Position numbers and translations under genes: made by a program. The notes beneath the pieces were generated by a model. That model was not told where the DNA came from and did no database searches. It worked only from the letters and a program-made list of their open reading frames with translations. Source: a virus. From it: DNA of 20,212 bases. Shown piece after piece: positions 5,489-19,118 of this stretch (the stretch's first letter is position 1; the number at the start of each line of letters is the position of its first letter). Location of the stretch: IMG/VR virus record IMGVR_UViG_3300009075_000021, positions 1 to 20,212 of that record, one strand, 5' to 3'.

Positions 5489-8444
5489 TGTAAAACGCTG
5501 CACCAGAATACACACCATCCGCGCCTGCGACTGCGCCAGCAGGGTTTCCCATGATGGACAGCGAACCAGTAGTTCCGCCCGTGTGTTCCTGACCGCCTGT
5601 GTACGTGACTTGCGCGGACAGCCTCCCGTCAATGTACATCTTGGCGGTGAGTGTTGCTGCGTCTTTGACGAATGCAATATGGTGCAGCTTACCATCCAGC
5701 GCGCCACCAAGATATTGAGTAAGAGCTGGGCCGTTCGTGCCTGCACCGTATTCCCAAAGCGTTCCCACAGTTCCGTTGGCAGCTAGATCTAACATGAAGC
5801 CGATGTTCGTCGCGAGTGTTTCGCCGTTGCCACCCATCACCATCAGATACCCGGCTGCCGTCCACGCGCCCCATATCTCCGCGGTGAGGGTTGTGATGGG
5901 TGCAAGCGCAGTGGCGATGGCTGTGTTGCCGGCGTAGTTCGCCTGACCTCCGTTAGTTGAAGCTGGACCTCTGCGTGCGGGAAAGTTCGAGTCGAGTGCG
6001 GAGAACTGGTACGCCTGCACCGGCGTCCCTGTGATTGCAAGGTCGTACCCGTTGCCGCTGCTGTCCGCGAAGGCACCGCTGGCCTCATCGAGCTTCCACC
6101 ATCCGAGAGGGGCGTCTGCGGTGATTTCAGCATCAATGGTGCTGAGCGTGTTAGTGTTAAGCCTCCAGATACGGATGCGCGATCCGACAGCTAGACCACC
6201 GGCAACCGTTGTCGTCAATGTAAGCGAAGTGACGTTGACGCCGGTCGTGACCCAACTATGGTTGATAAGAAAGTTTCGAGCGACGCTGAGGTCACCTTGA
6301 GCAATGCTTCCTTCAAAGTTAACACGCCCTGCCGCGTTGCGCATGAGGTTAGCTGTTGCGGTGAAAGTAGACCCTGAGCTAGCAAGGATTTCACCGATGT
6401 GAGGATCGTTAGACCGACCACCATAGACCGATCCGTTGTTTGCCCCGGTCGCTTGATACCAGTAATTCGTAACCGTGGTGTCGGCGTTATATGTCAGTCG
6501 CAGCGTCATCAGTGACGAGCCTGCATTTTGCAGCTTGAGCTCAACGAGGTAATGCTCGTCACTATCTAAATCAAGACCGCTAATGGTCAGTGTGGTTGAA
6601 GCCGATCCGGTGACTACGGATTCGCCCATGAATTGCAGCGCGCCCCCGCCCCCTCCGCCACCTCCGCCAACCACAGGCACCCACTCTGCATCCTTGCGCG
6701 CGTATTGCGCCCCGTCAATTGGAGCTTCGCTAACCCAAGGCGTTACACCTGCAACCCCTGCGTTGACCTCGTACCATGCTGAAGCGGTTTGATCGTAGAC
6801 GAGCGTGTGGTCCGGTACGTCAGCAAACAGCCACTCCGCGTTGTCCGCGTCCCACGTTGCGAAGTTGCCGTTCTGACCTGCCCATGCACCCGTCGCAGCA
6901 GGCGTGAGCGGGATGAAGTACGTGTCACCGTCGACAGGGGACACGGGCGGAGTGGTTAGCGTTGTGCTGACCACATTGGAACCCGTGTCCGCGGACTCCG
7001 CTGGCATCGTTGGGTCGCCCGGTACAGCCGGGTTCGCTATGGTCCCGAGGTAACTGGTCACACCGAGCGCATAGATGTCCTCGAGCGCTTCAATTTTAAT
7101 CGAGCCCTTTTGCAGCGTCCCCTTCGAAATCTTGATTACACGGTACACCGTGCCGTTGATGTCACGCGCTGCCCAATTGAGTCTGAACAGGTCGCCAAAC
7201 TTCACGCTCCAGGCGCGCCGGTTAATCTCGAACGTGATTTTGCTGAGCGGTGTGACGCGGCTTGCAAGCTCCCGTGCCAGCACAGTGCGCGCGACTGTAT
7301 GGTCGCGGATGCCCTTGTACTCGAGCTTCACCGGAACGCGCGCACCCTGCGCGTCAATGTTCGCTAGGTCTTGCTGCGAGATCGCGGTGTCCTTACCGTT
7401 GTCCGGATCCGTGTAGATAAGGGTTACTTCGTTGACCGTTTCGCCCCACGCTTGCCGCTGATAGTCGGTCAGCTGAAGGATGTCGTACTCGTCATATATC
7501 GGGAGCGCCGGGATGCTGTAGTCACCGCGCACGAGAACGAGCTCGTACTTCCCTGTCGCGGTGTTGAGCGTTAGACCGCCGGCAATGTGGTCAAGAATAA
7601 TCTCGATGAACTGCTCGATCGACGCGGTTTGGTTCCAGTTAATTGCAAGGCCGAAGTTCTCGGTGAACAGCTTGTCCGCTACTGCGGTGAACGTTGTGCT
7701 GTCCATCAACGCAGTGTCGACGCCCATGCCCCACCGAGGGTCTGTGAGGCACTGGTAGATGATGTGAGCGGGGTTCATCAGCTTCGTGCTGATGGTAGCT
7801 TTGGCGGAGTACCATGCTGTTCCACCGTACCAACCTGACAGGATACGCCGCACACGCACTGCCCAGACCTTCGGGTAGGCGGTCGTACCAATGTAGAAGG
7901 GGGATGCTGCGCTCCCTGTCAGGTATGCGAAGATGCCCCTGTAGGCAATGCTCGAGCCCGTCTGTGCAAGGAGGTAAGCGTTCGCAGTCTGTGCCTGCGT
8001 GCCGAACATGAACGACACGTCGCCTGCGACACCACCTTCGCGCTTCTCGCCACCGAACAGCGACTTGAGGTTAATGTTGATTGTGGAGTTAGAAGTTACT
8101 GCACCGGACCATGCTTGCTTCTCACCGATGAGGATGCGGTTGACTTGGTCGATTGGTCCGTGGCACAACCCTGCGTGATGGTCGATGTAATACTTGAAGC
8201 CAACTGTCGTAGACGAAAAGAGGCCGCTCTTCTTAATCTTTTTGACCTTGAGGTTACCGTACCACAGCACGTTCGAGCCGCGGATGTCTACCTCACCGAA
8301 CACCACAGGGATCGGGCGCCCTTCCTCCGCTGTCGGGAACTCGAAGTCGTCCAGTGCAGCAGACTTCGGGCCTTGCGGTTTCGGTGCTAACGCTATCCCG
8401 AGGACAAGCGTCACCACCATTACAATGATATATCCCCAGACCAT
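5427..8444 (-). CDS. J-like tail tip / host-specificity protein with LamG domain
   Basis: The 1005-residue central tail tip protein is expected to close the tail tube and contact the host. The N-terminal hydrophobic segment (about 3-22, YIIVMVVTLVLGIAL) and the following EEGRPIPVVFGEV are typical of siphoviral J-like proteins of the phage-tail_3 type. The hub region runs to about residue 480. A DUF2793-like segment follows (about 497-565: PVDGDTYFIP, ATGAWAGQNG, WLFADVPD). Next is APIDGAQYARKDAEWVPV (574-591), a motif common in tail fibres, and a nine-glycine linker (593-601). A beta-rich domain (about 605-760) and a LamG/concanavalin-A-like domain (777-1005, GWWKLDEASG, LHHIAFVKD, YIDG) end the protein. 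Start: ATG at 8444, two bases after the previous stop, without a strong ribosome site, so it is probably translated by coupling; an in-frame start at 8537 lies inside the L-like gene. It is the last gene of the tail operon. Confidence 0.88.
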   Translation of the reverse strand: MVWGYIIVMVVTLVLGIALAPKPQGPKSAALDDFEFPTAEEGRPIPVVFGEVDIRGSNVLWYGNLKVKKIKKSGLFSSTTVGFKYYIDHHAGLCHGPIDQVNRILIGEKQAWSGAVTSNSTININLKSLFGGEKREGGVAGDVSFMFGTQAQTANAYLLAQTGSSIAYRGIFAYLTGSAASPFYIGTTAYPKVWAVRVRRILSGWYGGTAWYSAKATISTKLMNPAHIIYQCLTDPRWGMGVDTALMDSTTFTAVADKLFTENFGLAINWNQTASIEQFIEIILDHIAGGLTLNTATGKYELVLVRGDYSIPALPIYDEYDILQLTDYQRQAWGETVNEVTLIYTDPDNGKDTAISQQDLANIDAQGARVPVKLEYKGIRDHTVARTVLARELASRVTPLSKITFEINRRAWSVKFGDLFRLNWAARDINGTVYRVIKISKGTLQKGSIKIEALEDIYALGVTSYLGTIANPAVPGDPTMPAESADTGSNVVSTTLTTPPVSPVDGDTYFIPLTPAATGAWAGQNGNFATWDADNAEWLFADVPDHTLVYDQTASAWYEVNAGVAGVTPWVSEAPIDGAQYARKDAEWVPVVGGGGGGGGGALQFMGESVVTGSASTTLTISGLDLDSDEHYLVELKLQNAGSSLMTLRLTYNADTTVTNYWYQATGANNGSVYGGRSNDPHIGEILASSGSTFTATANLMRNAAGRVNFEGSIAQGDLSVARNFLINHSWVTTGVNVTSLTLTTTVAGGLAVGSRIRIWRLNTNTLSTIDAEITADAPLGWWKLDEASGAFADSSGNGYDLAITGTPVQAYQFSALDSNFPARRGPASTNGGQANYAGNTAIATALAPITTLTAEIWGAWTAAGYLMVMGGNGETLATNIGFMLDLAANGTVGTLWEYGAGTNGPALTQYLGGALDGKLHHIAFVKDAATLTAKMYIDGRLSAQVTYTGGQEHTGGTTGSLSIMGNPAGAVAGADGVYSGAAFYTTALTEERIQAHARALGVYG
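6642..6668 (-). repeat. Nine-glycine linker tract in the J-like gene
   Basis: Nine consecutive GGN codons using mixed third bases (GGC, GGA, GGT, GGG) join the fibre-like APIDGAQYARKDAEWVPV segment to the C-terminal receptor-binding region. The mixed codons argue against recent slippage and for a selected flexible hinge. It is a likely recombination border for exchange of the C-terminal modules. Confidence 0.7.
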
Positions 8445-10985: not shown

Positions 10986-11909
10986 TCAGGGCCCGGTGTA
11001 CCGCAAAGCATACGCCAAAGTTCCGGAGTGGGTGTTCTCTGCTCCGCCGTCTCGTTCCGTGATGTCCTTGCGGAACCACGGGTACACCTTCCAGTCGTCC
11101 GGTCCAAGCGTAATGATATCGCCGGGAACAATGTTGTCGATGCGAATGTGTCGGATATGCTTGAGGTCCGCGACAAGCGTCTGTTTGCTGCCCGAGGAGC
11201 GCGGCATATAAACTGGGAACGGTATCAACAACGCTTCGCCGCTCCACAGGTTCGGAGAATATGCGATTAACGGGCTAAGGAAACGATTAGAGCTGGCCAT
11301 GTTTGACGAACCCGTGTTGCCGTGCCACCCCCCGCTATCAACGTCACCGTGGATGAAACTATTGTTCGTTCCGCTACTGTTGCCGCCTGGGGCGCCTGTG
11401 TAGACATGGAATAACGGACAACCGTCAACGTTGACTCCGAAGTTCGTCTGCGTATCAATGCCGGCTGGAGAGCATTGGTATTCACGTGAACCCTGTTGCG
11501 GTGTTCGATTCGCATGATACCAATTTCCCGTTCCCGTAAGCCCGGGGACGTCAGACTTGCCCCATGCCATCAGCGAATAATAGCTTGTCGAGTAGTTGAT
11601 AACGACGAACACTTCGTCTGGGGCTGTGTTGATGTGTATATCGCACGTCATCGGATAAGTGAGCGGGATACCCGCTATCGTTCCGAAATACGCATACTGA
11701 GGGCCTGGTGTAGTCAGAAGGTTGCTGCCGTCCTTGCCGTTGCCACCGAGGATGCGGACACCAACTGAACCGTCAAGCATCACCTCAACGTATGTGTCGC
11801 CCTTGTGCAGTACGTTGCCTGACAGCGTCCAGCCGTTCAACGTACAGGTATCACGAATGAACGTCAGGAGGGACGCGAGGTCCGCGATTGAGCTTGTAGC
11901 GTATGCCAT
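10986..11909 (-). CDS. Minor virion structural protein B (paralogue pair)
   Basis: This 307-residue soluble protein is rich in Gly, Ser, Asn and aromatic residues, as in fibre or baseplate decoration proteins. The N-terminus has LLTFIRDTCTLNGWTLSG (14-31), matching the N-terminus of the upstream gene (LEYIRDFVDTNGWTILEQ). The segment DIHINTAPDEVFVVINYSTS (90-109) and the ending WKVYPWFRKD (273-282) with ALRYTGP (301-307) resemble many phage proteins annotated only as structural or hypothetical. The ATG overlaps the upstream TGA by one base (TGATG). It lies between the tape measure gene and the distal-tail gene, so a minor tail or tail-fibre role is likely. No enzyme motif was seen. Confidence 0.7.
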   Translation of the reverse strand: MAYATSSIADLASLLTFIRDTCTLNGWTLSGNVLHKGDTYVEVMLDGSVGVRILGGNGKDGSNLLTTPGPQYAYFGTIAGIPLTYPMTCDIHINTAPDEVFVVINYSTSYYSLMAWGKSDVPGLTGTGNWYHANRTPQQGSREYQCSPAGIDTQTNFGVNVDGCPLFHVYTGAPGGNSSGTNNSFIHGDVDSGGWHGNTGSSNMASSNRFLSPLIAYSPNLWSGEALLIPFPVYMPRSSGSKQTLVADLKHIRHIRIDNIVPGDIITLGPDDWKVYPWFRKDITERDGGAENTHSGTLAYALRYTGP

Positions 11910-12769
11910 CAGGTTTCAAGCCTCAGTGCAAAATAGTCGATGAAGCCGGTGCGCGCAACGTCTTGAAGCACGATGTATGTTTCGCCACCGATGACAAGCG
12001 TGTTCTCTACGACGTTGTTGAAACCTGTGATGTAGTGGATGCCGTCGAGCTCGCCGTAAATGTTCGGGGAGCTGTCGCACATGACCACACGGGGCAGCGG
12101 GTAGCTAGCAGTGGCAGTGCCGTCCGCAGGGCGGATGCCTTGACCGCCTGCAAGGTAGCCGTTATTCCATGGATAAGTCTGCGGCTGGAGGTAGGCCCCT
12201 GTGATCCAGCGTATCTGCAAGTTGGCGCGCGAACCCTTCCACGGGAACGAGTGCGACGTGTCGCTGTAGCGCGTAGCAGGGACACCGCTCAGCATGCCCC
12301 CGCAGCAGATCGGATAGGGGTACTGGCGCGGGTTAGCATACGGCAGGAAGAACCCTGCGTAACCACACTCATAAACAGGCGTTCCAACCTTCAGCCCGAA
12401 CGCCACGCGACGGTCGTTCACCGTGAGCCAGTAGTCGATGCGCTGATTGTGCGCGGGTATGCCAGACTCCACGTAACCCGGCTGAGTGGTGAACGTATTG
12501 CCCGGGACGTACCCTGTGAACACTGCGACCGAGAGGTTGTAATAGTCCGACGGGACCGACTGATACGAGCGCATGCCGACGTAGGCGCGCACAGGGCCGT
12601 CCGGTCCCACATAACCGGGCGCTTCCGCGATCCAGTAGCGCGTGTCCGACGCCATGTCCTGCTCGAGGATGGTCCAGCCGTTCGTGTCTACAAAGTCACG
12701 GATGTACTCGAGCATCGCCCGGTTGGCGTAGCCCAAAGTATCGTCAACGAATCCAACTGCGTTAGGCAT
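11909..12769 (-). CDS. Minor virion structural protein A (paralogue pair)
   Basis: This 286-residue protein is probably related to the next gene downstream. Shared features are the N-terminal IRDFVDTNGWTI helix (23-34) and a C-terminal block ending in an aromatic FALRLE (280-285). The middle is rich in Tyr, Pro and Gly (YANPRQYPYPICCGG, 154-168), typical of beta-rich virion proteins. The ATG lies six bases after the tape measure stop (TAACCACACATG) with only a weak ribosome site, so translational coupling is likely. The position right after the tape measure gene suggests a tail tip or fibre component. I do not recognise a named family and infer function from position only. Confidence 0.7.
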   Translation of the reverse strand: MPNAVGFVDDTLGYANRAMLEYIRDFVDTNGWTILEQDMASDTRYWIAEAPGYVGPDGPVRAYVGMRSYQSVPSDYYNLSVAVFTGYVPGNTFTTQPGYVESGIPAHNQRIDYWLTVNDRRVAFGLKVGTPVYECGYAGFFLPYANPRQYPYPICCGGMLSGVPATRYSDTSHSFPWKGSRANLQIRWITGAYLQPQTYPWNNGYLAGGQGIRPADGTATASYPLPRVVMCDSSPNIYGELDGIHYITGFNNVVENTLVIGGETYIVLQDVARTGFIDYFALRLET

Positions 12770-12775
12770 GTGTGG

Positions 12776-15700
12776 TTAACCTGATTTCAGCATCTCGCGG
12801 ATGACGTTCATGTTGTACCCGATCACGTTGAGGATGGACTGCTGCCCTTCGCCACTCTCGATTGCATTCGGGATTTCCTTCGGGTCACGCACGTTAATGA
12901 TCTGCGGCTTGAACTCGATTTTCTGGTTCGAAGCTCCACCACTGTTCGGATCACCCTTGCGCTGCTGCTGCGGTGTGCTCACTGCAACCTTCTCGCCCGG
13001 GGTTGCACGGAACGCGACCATCTGGCTATCAGCACCACCCGAGCCACCAACCTTGAACTCGCCACCCGTTTGGAACCCAGGCGTCGCACCCGCTATCTGG
13101 GCAATCTGTACCGCACTCGCAGCCGCTTGCGCAGCCGCCAGCGCGATATTGTACGGGTACGGCGCGCTGCTGTATGCCTTCATAATTGCACTCGCTGCGT
13201 CGATGCTAGCTTGCGCAAGAGCGGCAGCTTGGCCTATCTTGAAGAGCTTGCTGTTGCCCGACTTCATCAGGGACGCCATGTTACCGAAGAACGACTGGAA
13301 GTTCTTGGTCCGCTCCTCCCACTGCTGATTCGCCACCTTCGCGCGCATCTGCTCAGCGGTTGCGTCGCTAATCAAATCCTTTTGCCGCATGAGGTCGATC
13401 TGCTCGTACATATACCGGAAGCGTTCAATCTGGAGGTCGATTGCTTCCTGCGTACCCTCGAACAGTTCCGGAGTGCTCTGCATCATTTGCGCAGTGGCGT
13501 CACCCTTCGTGATTTGCCCCTCCGCCAGCAGCTTGTTGATCGCGGTCAACTGGTCGATGTACGCTTGCCGGGCGCCTACGCTGTTGGCAAGTATCTCGTC
13601 CTGGACCTGCGTGATGCGGTTGAGCTCTTGCAGCGTTGTGAGCTTGTCGCGCAGCGCTTGCGTCTCTTCCTTGGTCAGCATGATACCTTGTTTCAGCAAC
13701 TCCTTCGTCGCCTCGAGCACCTGCCCCTCGACCTCGCGCGCAGCAGCGCTCATGCCTAACAGCGCAGTCTGTTGGTCGATCTCGCGGTTCATTGCGCCGA
13801 GTGGGTTCAGGATGTCCATGTAATAACGACTGAGGAGCTCGAGGTAACGACCCTCCTGCTCAGCGGTGATGAGCCCCTTCCTGCGCGCCGCGTCCAGAGT
13901 TTCAACTGCGGCTGCCATCTCCATCATTGCCCCTTCGATCGGTGCAATCTGGTTCAGCAGGCTTTGCAGTGATTCCTTGAGGCGGCGAAGCGCTTTGTCC
14001 GCGTTCGGGTCGGGCTTTCCTGCCAACGGGGGCAGCGGAAGCGGCTTGCGGTTGAGGTCGACTTTAATGTCTTCCAGCGGCGCACGGTCACGCGCAATCT
14101 CTTGCGCACGCTTCAGCACACCGTCAACCCAACCCTCGAGGAAGCCACCCTGCTGCGTGAACCCGTCGTTGATGGAGTTAGCAATGTTCTTGCCGTAGTC
14201 CTCGAAGAACGTTTTGTCGACTTCCATGCGCTCGAATTGCACAACCTCGATGAGCGACATGCCTACCGCGTCACGCATGACGTTGACACCGTCAACCACA
14301 ACGTTGACAAGCTTCTCCACAATGCCGATGACGACGTTGTATGTGCGCTTGAACATTTCGCTGATCGCGCCCGGGATGCCTGCAAACGCTCTGACCACAC
14401 CGATGCCCAGGCCTGTCAGCAACCCTGCGATCGCGTCCATGGTGCGTGCTACGCTCCGGGCAACCCCTGCAAAGCCTTTGCCAACCCCGTCGTAGAACCC
14501 GTCGAAGTAGGACAGCCACGCCTTAATCTGTTCGGCGGTGACGGCTGTAATGGTCGTCAGCACGTTACCAATGACCGACAGGATGCCTCCGAACACGTCG
14601 TTCAGGATTCCGTACAGCCCAAGCAAGCCTGCCCGTATCTGCTCCCACACCGCAAGCGCAACGTCCTTCATTGTGGTCAGGTCGTCAACGCCAGCGTTCA
14701 GCTTGTCGCCCCATACCACAAGCACACCAATCGTGGCAATGATTGCGGTTGCTAGCGCGACGAATGGGTGCGCGTTAATCAAGACGAACAGGGCGACAAC
14801 CCGTGTGTAGACCGAGTTCAACATATTGCGCAGGAACAGCATGGCTTGCCCGAACACGGTAGTCGTACCCGCTGCCGCTGCCCCTGTGGTCGCTACCGCA
14901 GCCTGTGCCGCTGCAACGTTGGCACCCGCTGCTGCTAGCGCTGCCGACTGCTGCGTTGCCCTAGCAAGCTGTGCTGAGCTTGCAGCGCTTGCGGCAGCCT
15001 TCGCCGCAGTGAGCTCCGCTTCCGCTGTGGTCAGCAGCTTGGTCATCGCCAGTTCGGACGTGCGGATACCCGCAAGCCGCGTGGCGGACTGCATGCGACC
15101 GATGTCGCTTATCTGGGCCTTCATGCGGACGATTTCCAACTCGCGCTCGGACACAAGCTGCGCCTGCGACCATCGGATGCGGTCCGCTGCGGCGGCAGCG
15201 TTAGCAACCGCTGCCCGAGTCGTCAGGATAATCCCCGCTCCTTCTGCGTCAGCCTTCAGCGTCGCAGCGATAACCGCAGCACGGTCCGCTTCAGCAGACG
15301 CTAGCACCGCGATCGCTTTCTGGCTGTTCGCTGCTGCACTTCCAAGCATGACCACATTGCCCGAGGCGACTGCTGCGGTAAGCCCAAGGAATGCTTTCGC
15401 AGATTCGACAATGGCGTTGACCTTCATTGCCAGCAAGAAGGCTCCATACGCTACCGCAGCAACGGCCACGGTCTTGGTCAACCTGACGATGGTATCCAGC
15501 AGGTCGCTCATGTTGTCGGAAATGTACCGCGCAGCTTTTCCGATTGCGTTGCTGATACCTATTGCAGCATCCGCTTCACCAATCCATTTCGTGAATGCGT
15601 TTCGGATGATGATGAACGACTGTCCGATCGTGAAAGCTGACTTGGAGAACTTTGCATTGATCTCGTCCGTACCCGCCATGATTGCTTCAAAGAACATCTT

Positions 15701-16306
15701 TGAAGTCAACCTTTCCTGAATCATAATTTGTCGCAGACGGATAATGCTGCCACCCGCCTCGTCAATGTTGTTAGCAGCGATTTGTAAGATCGCGGGAGCA
15801 CCTTCAAGGATAGAGTTGAATTCTTCTGCCCGTACTAGGACTCCGCCAACTGCTTGGCCAAGTTGCAGCAGTGCGCCGCGTGCTTGATCCGTTGTTCTAT
15901 TGCTGAAGGCTAGTGTCTTGCCGATGTTTTCCGTGAACTTGATAAGGTCTGCTTGCGAGGCGCCCACTTCCCTGCCTGCAATCGCGAGGCGACTGTAGAG
16001 CTCGACCATGTCAACGACGCCTTGCCTCGTCTTCTGGGAAACTTTGAAAAGTTCGTCCATGACAGCAGTGGCTTCTTGCGTGCTAGCGGTGGCGACGCGC
16101 ACCATGCCGTTGACGGCTGACCATGCGTCCGCATACTTGCGCAATTCGTTGAGAGCGAGCAGCGAACCCAGGCCTAGCAGGGCGCTCTTCAGTATGTTCA
16201 CGCCTGTAGCAGAAGCTTTCGCGGTTGTACCGATGGACTCGATATTGCGCTTGACCACACGGGAACCGTCTTCACGGATTTGAATGTCAATGCGTTCAAC
16301 AGTCAT
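12776..16306 (-). CDS. Tape measure protein
   Basis: The 1176-residue protein sets tail length and is packed inside the tail tube before ejection. The N-terminal tape measure domain is clear (about 55-250, NRTTDQARGALLQLGQAVGG and EEFNSILEGAP). Hydrophobic segments occur near 275-300 (VAVAAVAYGAFLLAM) and 520-545 (FVALATAIIATIGVLVV), as expected for a protein that can enter the host membrane. Long Ala-rich helical stretches fill the rest. The C-terminus has the common GGEFKVGGSGGADSQMVAF and TPGEKV pattern (about 1078-1106). The ATG overlaps the upstream stop by four bases (ATGA), with GAGG about 11 bases before it. At roughly 1.5 angstrom per residue, the predicted tail is about 175 nm. The call is secure. 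Confidence 0.95.
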   Translation of the reverse strand: MTVERIDIQIREDGSRVVKRNIESIGTTAKASATGVNILKSALLGLGSLLALNELRKYADAWSAVNGMVRVATASTQEATAVMDELFKVSQKTRQGVVDMVELYSRLAIAGREVGASQADLIKFTENIGKTLAFSNRTTDQARGALLQLGQAVGGVLVRAEEFNSILEGAPAILQIAANNIDEAGGSIIRLRQIMIQERLTSKMFFEAIMAGTDEINAKFSKSAFTIGQSFIIIRNAFTKWIGEADAAIGISNAIGKAARYISDNMSDLLDTIVRLTKTVAVAAVAYGAFLLAMKVNAIVESAKAFLGLTAAVASGNVVMLGSAAANSQKAIAVLASAEADRAAVIAATLKADAEGAGIILTTRAAVANAAAAADRIRWSQAQLVSERELEIVRMKAQISDIGRMQSATRLAGIRTSELAMTKLLTTAEAELTAAKAAASAASSAQLARATQQSAALAAAGANVAAAQAAVATTGAAAAGTTTVFGQAMLFLRNMLNSVYTRVVALFVLINAHPFVALATAIIATIGVLVVWGDKLNAGVDDLTTMKDVALAVWEQIRAGLLGLYGILNDVFGGILSVIGNVLTTITAVTAEQIKAWLSYFDGFYDGVGKGFAGVARSVARTMDAIAGLLTGLGIGVVRAFAGIPGAISEMFKRTYNVVIGIVEKLVNVVVDGVNVMRDAVGMSLIEVVQFERMEVDKTFFEDYGKNIANSINDGFTQQGGFLEGWVDGVLKRAQEIARDRAPLEDIKVDLNRKPLPLPPLAGKPDPNADKALRRLKESLQSLLNQIAPIEGAMMEMAAAVETLDAARRKGLITAEQEGRYLELLSRYYMDILNPLGAMNREIDQQTALLGMSAAAREVEGQVLEATKELLKQGIMLTKEETQALRDKLTTLQELNRITQVQDEILANSVGARQAYIDQLTAINKLLAEGQITKGDATAQMMQSTPELFEGTQEAIDLQIERFRYMYEQIDLMRQKDLISDATAEQMRAKVANQQWEERTKNFQSFFGNMASLMKSGNSKLFKIGQAAALAQASIDAASAIMKAYSSAPYPYNIALAAAQAAASAVQIAQIAGATPGFQTGGEFKVGGSGGADSQMVAFRATPGEKVAVSTPQQQRKGDPNSGGASNQKIEFKPQIINVRDPKEIPNAIESGEGQQSILNVIGYNMNVIREMLKSG

Positions 16307-16752
16307 GGTCCGACGGTCCTCGTAACCCTAGCATTTTTGACAACGCGAACACCAACCATCACCGCCTTCTCCACGAAGCCGGAAGGGGCTTGCGCAGAGA
16401 ATCCCTCGTTGAGCTTGCCGATATAAGACAGGTTGTTCGTGATGTGGATGGAGGCGTTTACCCCTCCTTTGTACTGCGCCACAACGGCCTTGCCTTGGTC
16501 CAACGCAGCACGGGAGTTCTCACCCTCGGTGCTGCGCTTGCTGCCCGGCACGTAGGGCTCGCGCGTGCTTAGGTTGGGACCGTTGAGCTCGACCTGCCAG
16601 TTTGAACGGGCGCGACCAGTGTCAACAGGGGTTGCGAGAACGACGGTGGCATCCACAGCGAGCGCGCACTTACGCACCAGGCGGTCAGCGTTCCTTTCGA
16701 TACGCTCACCAACCTTTTTCATCCGTCTCGCAAACTCCGGGGCACTGGCCAC
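16303..16752 (-). CDS. HK97 gp10-like tail-completion/minor tail protein
   Basis: The 149-residue protein carries the ATPVDTGRARSNW motif (40-52) characteristic of HK97 gp10-like and related phage neck/tail-completion proteins. A second hallmark is NNLSYIGKLNEGFSAQAPSG (105-124) followed by FVEKAV. Such proteins normally join head to tail or complete the tail end. Start: GTG at 16752 (GTGGCCAGTGCC) with GAGGTG four bases upstream, overlapping the end of the chaperone gene T. Its location between the chaperone and tape measure genes is unusual, since relatives usually precede the tube gene. Its stop overlaps the tape measure start by four bases. Family confident, exact role uncertain. Confidence 0.75.
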   Translation of the reverse strand: MASAPEFARRMKKVGERIERNADRLVRKCALAVDATVVLATPVDTGRARSNWQVELNGPNLSTREPYVPGSKRSTEGENSRAALDQGKAVVAQYKGGVNASIHITNNLSYIGKLNEGFSAQAPSGFVEKAVMVGVRVVKNARVTRTVGP

Positions 16753-16760
16753 CGTTCACC

Positions 16761-17099
16761 TCATTTCGTTTTCGCCTCGAGCTTCTTAGTCTTGTGATCC
16801 AAGTACACTGCGTCGAGATGAGCTATAAAATAAAACAGGTCTTCGCGCTGCGCCCCTCTTAGTTCCTTCCGGTCCGCATACTCTGCAATCGTCATCCAGC
16901 TGATCGGTCCTTCCGTCATCCCCTGCGGCCTACACGTTGTCAGGTCCAGGAACGCGCTGTAATACATCTCCAAGCCGAGCCAGATATCTGGTGCGTTTGC
17001 AATGCGTGCGGGGAGGGGTTGCCTGTCCCGCATGCACGCTTGGATAATTGCCTTCTCAGTCGGCCCCTGTTCAAGGAAGTACAGAAGGACCGTTTTCAG
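16761..17099 (-). CDS. Tail assembly chaperone T extension (-1 frameshift product)
   Basis: This 112-codon frame is entered by -1 slippage at the end of G. The first codon after the slip is CTG at 17099, so the fused product would be about 259 residues (147 from G plus 112). The T part begins LKTVLLYFLEQGPTEKAI and contains PISWMTIAEYAD, EDLFYFIAHLDAVYLD and a basic tail KTKKLEAKTK. In lambda-type phages GT binds the tape measure protein and brings tube subunits to it. The only ATG in the frame (17033) lacks a ribosome site, which favours frameshifting over independent translation. The stop lies eight bases before the next GTG. Confidence 0.82.
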   Translation of the reverse strand: MKTVLLYFLEQGPTEKAIIQACMRDRQPLPARIANAPDIWLGLEMYYSAFLDLTTCRPQGMTEGPISWMTIAEYADRKELRGAQREDLFYFIAHLDAVYLDHKTKKLEAKTK

Positions 17100-17105
17100 T
17101 TTCCC
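17061..17105 (-). promoter_or_regulatory. -1 programmed ribosomal frameshift signal
   Basis: On the minus strand the heptamer GGGAAAC (17105-17099) reads G GGA AAC in the G frame and fits X XXY YYZ, like lambda's GGGAAAG. It is followed by the G stop TGA and, after a 6-base spacer (TGAAAA), by a stem-loop. CGGTCC-TT-CTGT pairs with ACAG-GGGCCG around a 10-base loop (17092-17061), leaving only a two-base bulge and one G-U pair. The shifted frame is open for 112 codons. Confidence 0.9.
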
Positions 17106-17539
17106 GCGTCGGCTTCCCGTAGCTCAACGCGGAACAGCGCAGCCTTGTTCGACTGCTCCTGCAAATCGTTGAACAGGTCGGGGAGTTGCTTAAACAGTGC
17201 AGTGGCGTTTTCCCGCGTGAACGGGAGCAGCTTGCCATCACGATCGGTTACGTTGTCCCATCCGAGGAGCACAGTGTCCACGAACGCTTGCTGCGTCATG
17301 CTCATAAGCACCGCAGTCTCGATCATGTCGTTCTGGATTGCGCGACGGTGCTTCTTCGCCAGCACCTCCAAGCGCTTCGTGTACGTCTCGTTGGCGCCAC
17401 CGGCGCGTGCGAGGCGAAACTGAATCGAAGGGTGCTCGCCTTGCTCGTTAACCGGCAAGTCCTTGTTCGGACCGTAATCCGCAATGATGCCCGATTTCTC
17501 GAGCGTGGGATCGGTTTCGAACTGTTTGAAAAGGCTCAT
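17096..17539 (-). CDS. Tail assembly chaperone G
   Basis: The 147-residue chaperone helps assemble the tail tube around the tape measure and is not part of the mature virion. It starts MSLFKQFETDPTLEKSG, and its C-terminal half has LGWDNVTDRDGKLLPFT (92-108), ENATALFKQLPDLF (110-123) and FRVELREADAGN (136-147), a pattern seen in phage tail chaperones. Start: ATG at 17539 with AAGGTGA about four bases upstream; an in-frame GTG at 17593 would sit in the hairpin and lacks a ribosome site. The gene ends at the GGGAAAC slippery site, so a fraction of ribosomes should make a G-T fusion. A strong hairpin precedes it, after the tube gene, which would keep its level below that of the tube protein. Confidence 0.85.
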   Translation of the reverse strand: MSLFKQFETDPTLEKSGIIADYGPNKDLPVNEQGEHPSIQFRLARAGGANETYTKRLEVLAKKHRRAIQNDMIETAVLMSMTQQAFVDTVLLGWDNVTDRDGKLLPFTRENATALFKQLPDLFNDLQEQSNKAALFRVELREADAGN

Positions 17540-17564
17540 GCTGTCACCTTGTGTTGATAGGGTA

Positions 17565-17592
17565 TGCGGGGTGAGGTTCAACTCACCCCGCA
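17565..17592 (-). terminator. Attenuator-like hairpin after the tail tube gene
   Basis: TGCGGGGTGAG and CTCACCCCGCA form a perfect 11-bp stem around a 6-base loop (GTTCAA on the + strand). It starts eight bases after the tube gene stop. No T-run follows, so it may be a partial terminator or an mRNA-stabilising 3' end. Either would raise tube protein relative to downstream chaperone and tape measure. Confidence 0.6.
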
Positions 17593-17600
17593 CACTACCA

Positions 17601-19118
17601 TCACGCGGCGACAGTCGGCAAGTACGGGAAGCTCTGGAACAGCAGCGTATGGCCGAAGCTCGACTCCGCTGCCATGTTCTCGAGGGGCAGCTTGATCGCC
17701 TGGTCCTGCTCGACGTTCAGTCGACCGTCACCGAGCGACAGCAACGGCACATCGAGGATGAGCCCCTTGTTACCCTTCGACAAAATGATGTCGAGGGTGA
17801 TGTCGCTGTTGTTCCGCACGGCCTGCACTGCGTCAATGCTGGCGAAGTACGCTTCGATCGCGCCGCCCACTTCGAACGTTCCCGCGCTCGTGTCGAACGC
17901 ACCCAACACACCGACCGCCTTGTTGGGCGACACGTTGTTATTGATGGTGAGCGTGACTTCGGTCGCGAACGCGAACAGCGGGGCAATGTCCGTATCGTCG
18001 CTGACGGTTGCCAGCTTAATACGGGCGAAGTCGCTGCTCGTATTGTAAGCGTCCTGAGCGACGAGTGTGGGGCGCGTGCCGCTCTTCACACCCGTGAGCC
18101 CGGTGCGCTGCTCGTTGTCGCAGGCCACGAACGACAGGTCCATCGTCACCTTGTCCGCCTGGGCGATGTTGATGGTCAGCTCGTTGGGTACTGCACCCAC
18201 GAGGTATTCCGACATCGTGCCGTTGGCGTCGAGGCCCAACGTGCGCTCCACGTTGTACGTGCGGCGGACGATGAGGTTCGGGTCGCTCTCGTTCTTCAGG
18301 ACCGAGCCGTAGAACAGGCGGATCGTCTTCGCTGCACCCGCGTCAGCAACCGGCGCCCACGTCGTCTTGTCGAACTCGATGTACGTGGCGGCGATGGTTT
18401 TGATGCGTGCGAAGCCCGGCGCATTGAGCGCGAACTGTTCACCGGCAAGGTCACCGCCGACGAACACCCACTCGCCCACGATGAGCGGCAGTGTGGTCAT
18501 GGTCACTGCCAGACTGGTCAGCCGGGCCAGCGTACCGTTCATCACGATGCTGAGATCCCCAGACGCGAACTGGCGACCCACGAGGGTGACTTTCGCTGCT
18601 GCCGGAGGGGAAGCTTCGTCCGCCAACGAGTCGCTGACACTAAGAGCGTTTGCGGTTGACGTCAGGTTGCAAGTCTTGAGACCGTTGTTCGCTGCAACGC
18701 CGAAGCCTTCCGCGAACAGCAGGTCACCGGAGACCAACCCGAGCAGACCGGACGCTGCGGTGTAGTCGTCGTTCGCTGCGGTGATGGAGGTCATGACCAC
18801 AGCAGCTGAGTTCAGCGTCTGCGTCGTGAACTTCTCGCGCATCGCTGCGAAGAAGAAACCCTGCATGAGGCGGGTCGTGTTGTTGAACGTCAAGTCCTGA
18901 TTGAACCCACCGCTCGCATCGAGGTCGGTAATGACGCCCTTCTTGCGCTGGCGCGACGGGTTGATGGGATTGCGCGCGATGGTCGCGAGCTGTCCACCGA
19001 AATCGCTGTAGCTGTTCGGCTCCAGCGGATACCAGACAGGGGAGCCCGGAAGCGTCTTGAGGGACGACTCCTCGGCGAACCGCAGTCCGGTGACATTGCT
19101 ATCAATTTTGTCAGCCAT
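17601..19118 (-). CDS. Major tail tube protein
   Basis: The 505-residue subunit builds the tail tube. The N-terminus (MADKIDSNVTGLRFAEESSL, RQRKKGVITDLDASGGFNQD) and C-terminal half (VERTLGLDANG, GAVPNELTINI, DLSFVACDNEQRTG) match the tail tube proteins of many siphoviruses. It is about twice the length of lambda gpV. The extra length lies mainly in residues about 105-275, where two similar beta-rich segments appear (GLVSGDLLFAEGFG and PLIVGEWVFVGGDLAG), suggesting an inserted, possibly surface-exposed domain. The ATG at 19118 has GAGGTGA six bases upstream, the strongest ribosome site in the operon, consistent with the highest expression. The position between the terminator gene and the chaperone genes is canonical. 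Confidence 0.9.
   Translation of the reverse strand: MADKIDSNVTGLRFAEESSLKTLPGSPVWYPLEPNSYSDFGGQLATIARNPINPSRQRKKGVITDLDASGGFNQDLTFNNTTRLMQGFFFAAMREKFTTQTLNSAAVVMTSITAANDDYTAASGLLGLVSGDLLFAEGFGVAANNGLKTCNLTSTANALSVSDSLADEASPPAAAKVTLVGRQFASGDLSIVMNGTLARLTSLAVTMTTLPLIVGEWVFVGGDLAGEQFALNAPGFARIKTIAATYIEFDKTTWAPVADAGAAKTIRLFYGSVLKNESDPNLIVRRTYNVERTLGLDANGTMSEYLVGAVPNELTINIAQADKVTMDLSFVACDNEQRTGLTGVKSGTRPTLVAQDAYNTSSDFARIKLATVSDDTDIAPLFAFATEVTLTINNNVSPNKAVGVLGAFDTSAGTFEVGGAIEAYFASIDAVQAVRNNSDITLDIILSKGNKGLILDVPLLSLGDGRLNVEQDQAIKLPLENMAAESSFGHTLLFQSFPYLPTVAA

Follow-up and report, generated by a model that had tools for sequence, protein, structure and literature searches.

The slippery heptamer of phage lambda at the junction of its tail chaperone genes G and T is GGGAAAG. 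The lambda mechanism has been reviewed (PMC5009743), and in E. coli A_AAA_AAC has been found to be less slippery than A_AAA_AAG (PMC5009743). In Burkholderia phage KL1, GGGAAAC lies immediately upstream of a TGA, followed by an mfold-predicted stem-loop, and a single gene separates T from the tape measure gene (PMC3483164), while Acinetobacter phage Loki carries AAAAAAC next to a stop codon, the identical motif being present in IME_AB3 (PMC5313236). The sequence considered here is an IMG/VR virus record of 20,212 bases, referred to as the window, from a phage known from a metagenome only. To judge from its sequence, the window very probably encodes a G/GT pair made by -1 programmed frameshifting at GGGAAAC, with a predicted downstream stem-loop and a GT fusion. 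This arrangement is the standard one, already described in closely related phages (KL1, Loki).

Slip site, reading frames and gene neighbourhood

The heptamer occupies positions 17099-17105 (-) in the X XXY YYZ phase, both phase and sequence being read directly, and the G frame reads GCG GGA AAC TGA, the zero-frame TGA at 17096-17098 (-) adjoining the slip site. The -1 frame continues from GGG AAA with CTG AAA and remains open for 112 codons to a stop at 16761, giving a T domain (16761-17105, -) which matches PHROG 3817 (E 1e-34) and PF23812 (Phage_TAC_18, E 5e-21) as well as PHROG 8233, and which is kept as protein from the slip onward. The zero-frame product is gene G (17096-17539, -), a tail assembly chaperone gene of 147 aa by its matches to PHROG 313 (E 3e-25) and PHROG 8233, preceded by the Shine-Dalgarno-like AAGGTGA and with homologues in approximately 300 phage records. 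G and T overlap by only about nine codons. An earlier note, made from the bases of the window, had described the heptamer in the correct phase, the stop directly after it, a -1 frame open for 112 codons into a T-like sequence, and a 6-base spacer before a 10-bp stem-loop with one 2-nt bulge, and each of these elements is present.

Upstream of G lies the gene for the major tail tube protein (17601-19118, -; PF18906, Phage_tube_2, E 3e-37; PHROG 290). Downstream of T, a tail completion or HK97 gp10-like gene (16303-16752, -; PHROG 169, E 9e-39; PF04883) is followed by the tape measure protein gene (12776-16306, -; 1176 aa; PHROG 3336, E 2e-227; PF20155). G and T are therefore placed between the major tail tube and tape measure genes with one HK97 gp10-like gene intervening, the position of a lambda G/GT-type pair.

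Several further features of the neighbourhood were observed. The gap that separates G from the tail tube gene contains a 14-bp hairpin (GTGTGCGGGGTGAG-TTGAAC-CTCACCCCGCATAC; 17562-17595, -) without a T run; strong hairpins occupy this gap in many relatives, and in Sonora and PaMx42 the annotation calls them terminators. The hairpin of the window is possibly an attenuator setting the level of tube protein relative to that of the chaperones. Two adjacent genes, 10986-11909 (-) and 11909-12769 (-), both match the structural-protein family PHROG 687 and are apparently a tandem duplication. At the other end of the window, a GTP cyclohydrolase gene (FolE, 2-658, +) and a queuine tRNA-ribosyltransferase-like gene (PHROG 887, DpdA-like, 627-1616, +) suggest 7-deazaguanine DNA modification, as in Queuovirinae.

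Conservation of the junction among relatives

The heptamer by itself is not rare, GGGAAAC occurring three times in the whole window against 2.1 expected, but sites of the form XXX(A/T)3Z occupy only 4 of 5832 in-phase codon positions in the genes of the window. The tail hub gene contains a further GGGAAAC in phase (5544-5550, -), roughly 40 codons short of its end and with a -1 frame that is open but arginine-rich; this one was judged to be due to chance. At the G/T junction, chance is excluded as an explanation because the slip site is conserved in homologous junctions. These were located in 118 loci, of which 79 were non-redundant (sharing less than 85% identity in the 100 nt that follow the slip), and their heptamers were GGGAAAC in 42, AAAAAAC in 36 and GGGAAAG in one, so that 78 of the 79 have the form XXXAAAC. 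The sole GGGAAAG belongs to locus L080, whose match starts near position 801, and stands directly before a TAA. Prophage relatives were sought in genome contigs, with L119 as the only one found.

When 32 distinct junctions were read individually, the -1 frame was open into T with the two frames joined at the heptamer, although one of these junctions is cut by the contig end (L028) and in another, RDJL3, a single codon separates the heptamer from the stop. The phages RcHartney, Sonora and RcSimone-Hastad have been deposited with joined CDSs covering the G and T frames. The earlier proposal of a G/GT frameshift is accordingly supported by the family matches of both G and T, by the gene context, and by the conservation of the slip, its phase and the T frame.

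The T protein could instead start at the in-frame ATG at 17033, the heptamer being incidental, and several records do give the T homologue its own CDS from an internal codon. This ATG, however, has no Shine-Dalgarno-like sequence placed before it in the window, lies within a predicted hairpin, and is shared by only 16 of the 71 relatives aligned. Upstream of the ATG, moreover, the T frame is kept as protein from the slip on, retaining the motif VLxYxLExGP with differences mostly at codon position 3, and the heptamer is near-invariant across the 79 junctions. Several relatives have a T frame that lacks any ATG over the first 200-320 nt past the slip, which leaves little room for a separately made T in them. 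The rarity of the ATG, the missing Shine-Dalgarno-like sequence and the relatives without a nearby ATG together indicate that T is most likely made only as GT, and a separately started T is very improbable.

A GT fusion might also arise by a -2 or +1 shift, or by transcriptional slippage on the heptamer. A CCCUUUUUUU motif with a -2 shift has been reported for the distant relative phage 9g (PMC4276943), and the A-run of AAAAAAC in 36 of the 79 relatives could slip during transcription. The 42 relatives with GGGAAAC nevertheless have no extended homopolymer, and wherever the T frame was read it followed the heptamer directly in -1, making these routes, if anything, even less probable than an independent start of T. 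A -1 ribosomal slip is the reading followed below.

Predicted RNA folding after the slip

The spacer TGAAAA separates the heptamer by 6 nt from a predicted stem-loop (17061-17092, -) of 10 bp with a UU bulge, CGGUCC-(UU)-CUGU pairing with ACAG-GGGCCG, which by its minimum free energy (MFE) and the folding of the family is the likely frameshift stimulator. The 38-nt segment after the slip has an MFE of -12.6 kcal/mol, at z -2.25 relative to dinucleotide-shuffled sequences, a 101-nt context is not unusually strongly folded, and against synonymous-codon shuffles the stem of the window taken by itself is suggestive only (p 0.10-0.13).

The relatives provide a clearer signal. Under the synonymous null, folding within the region scanned is strongest in the 45 nt that follow the slip (mean z -1.90 over 79 junctions); the family-wide excess reaches z -12 when synonymous codons are permuted within alignment columns, and p is 2e-13 over 55 clusters. 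The column-wise null disrupts the codon coherence within each phage genome and ignores relatedness, and may thus inflate z, but the near-flat stretch between this peak and a second one further downstream (z -1.4), together with the separate per-genome null, argues against inflation as the whole effect. Covariation in the relatives gave no significant support for the exact pairs of the window, and RNAalifold returned no consensus structure for the family. The register of the stem varies among relatives, the commonest differing from that of the window. The reading favoured is that a stem at the post-slip position is under selection while its exact pairing drifts.

The earlier note had also suggested that an unusual efficiency might result from the immediate stop and the tight stem. 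This is not supported, as the codon right after the heptamer is a stop in 64 of the 79 non-redundant junctions and relatives often have stems predicted to be as strong or stronger; both features are family norms and not oddities.

The second folding peak lies approximately 57-105 nt downstream of the slip, with values near zero between the peaks and beyond. In the window it corresponds to a second predicted hairpin (16999-17039, -; -20.1 kcal/mol) covering the ATG at 17033, which alone reaches p ~0.09. Excess folding at this position across the 71 aligned relatives is well supported, with a family-wide z of -11.7 under column-wise synonymous permutation, subject to the same possible inflation, and a mean z of -1.18 (p 3e-6) in 55 clusters. 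Two roles for the hairpin were considered and rejected: relatives with and without an ATG there show no difference, which speaks against a mask of the internal start, and compensation for a weak first stem would predict a negative correlation that is not seen (Spearman 0.21, p 0.09). Rfam gave no match, and a narrowly worded literature search, which is weak evidence, returned no published description of such an element. The hairpin could be a selected part of the frameshift cassette, acting in addition to the usual single stimulator and adjusting ribosome traffic or the G:GT ratio, though this is rather unlikely because the classical pause mechanism would need a structure closer to the slip.

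Proposed mechanism and comparison with known systems

From the sequence and from the lambda precedent we infer that the slip occurs, at some rate, and that the products act as chaperones. Most ribosomes would read GGA AAC and stop at the TGA, producing G, whereas a minority would pause at the stem-loop, slip from GGA AAC to GGG AAA and translate 112 more codons, producing GT. If the system works as in lambda, G would coat the tape measure protein, the T part of GT would recruit tail tube subunits, and the fraction of ribosomes that slip would set the G:GT ratio. The slip rate may be low, given the weaker slipping of A_AAA_AAC relative to A_AAA_AAG in E. coli. Across the family the site is almost always XXXAAAC, though XXXAAAG-type sites slip more in that host (PMC5009743).

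The analysis allows G and GT to be assigned correctly in an uncultivated phage, and for many relatives in which T stands as a CDS of its own the annotation is probably wrong. Work on frameshifting gains two modest leads, the near-exclusive use of XXXAAAC over XXXAAAG and the second hairpin.

Among known systems, lambda G/GT shares with the window two chaperones with one start, a -1 frameshift and a location ahead of the gene for the tape measure (PMC5009743), a likeness drawn from published description; the window differs in its heptamer and in the tail-completion gene that separates T from the tape measure gene. The closest annotated relatives are the Pseudomonas phages NP1 and PaMx25 (Nipunavirus), with G ~49% and T ~65% identical and with the same gene order and slip position. 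They differ from the window in their AAAAAAC heptamer, a spacer of ~8 nt and a stronger predicted stem, and their records annotate two separate genes. Loki and IME_AB3 likewise have homologous G and T genes and slip position, tested here for IME_AB3, and a motif adjoining the stop, the heptamer being AAAAAAC instead of GGGAAAC. KL1, compared through its published description, is a different phage of a different host, and in both cases the frameshift is a prediction; its gp18/gp19 junction nevertheless matches that of the window in a GGGAAAC adjoining the TGA of the G gene, a -1 fusion, a predicted downstream stem-loop and one tail gene separating T from the tape measure gene.
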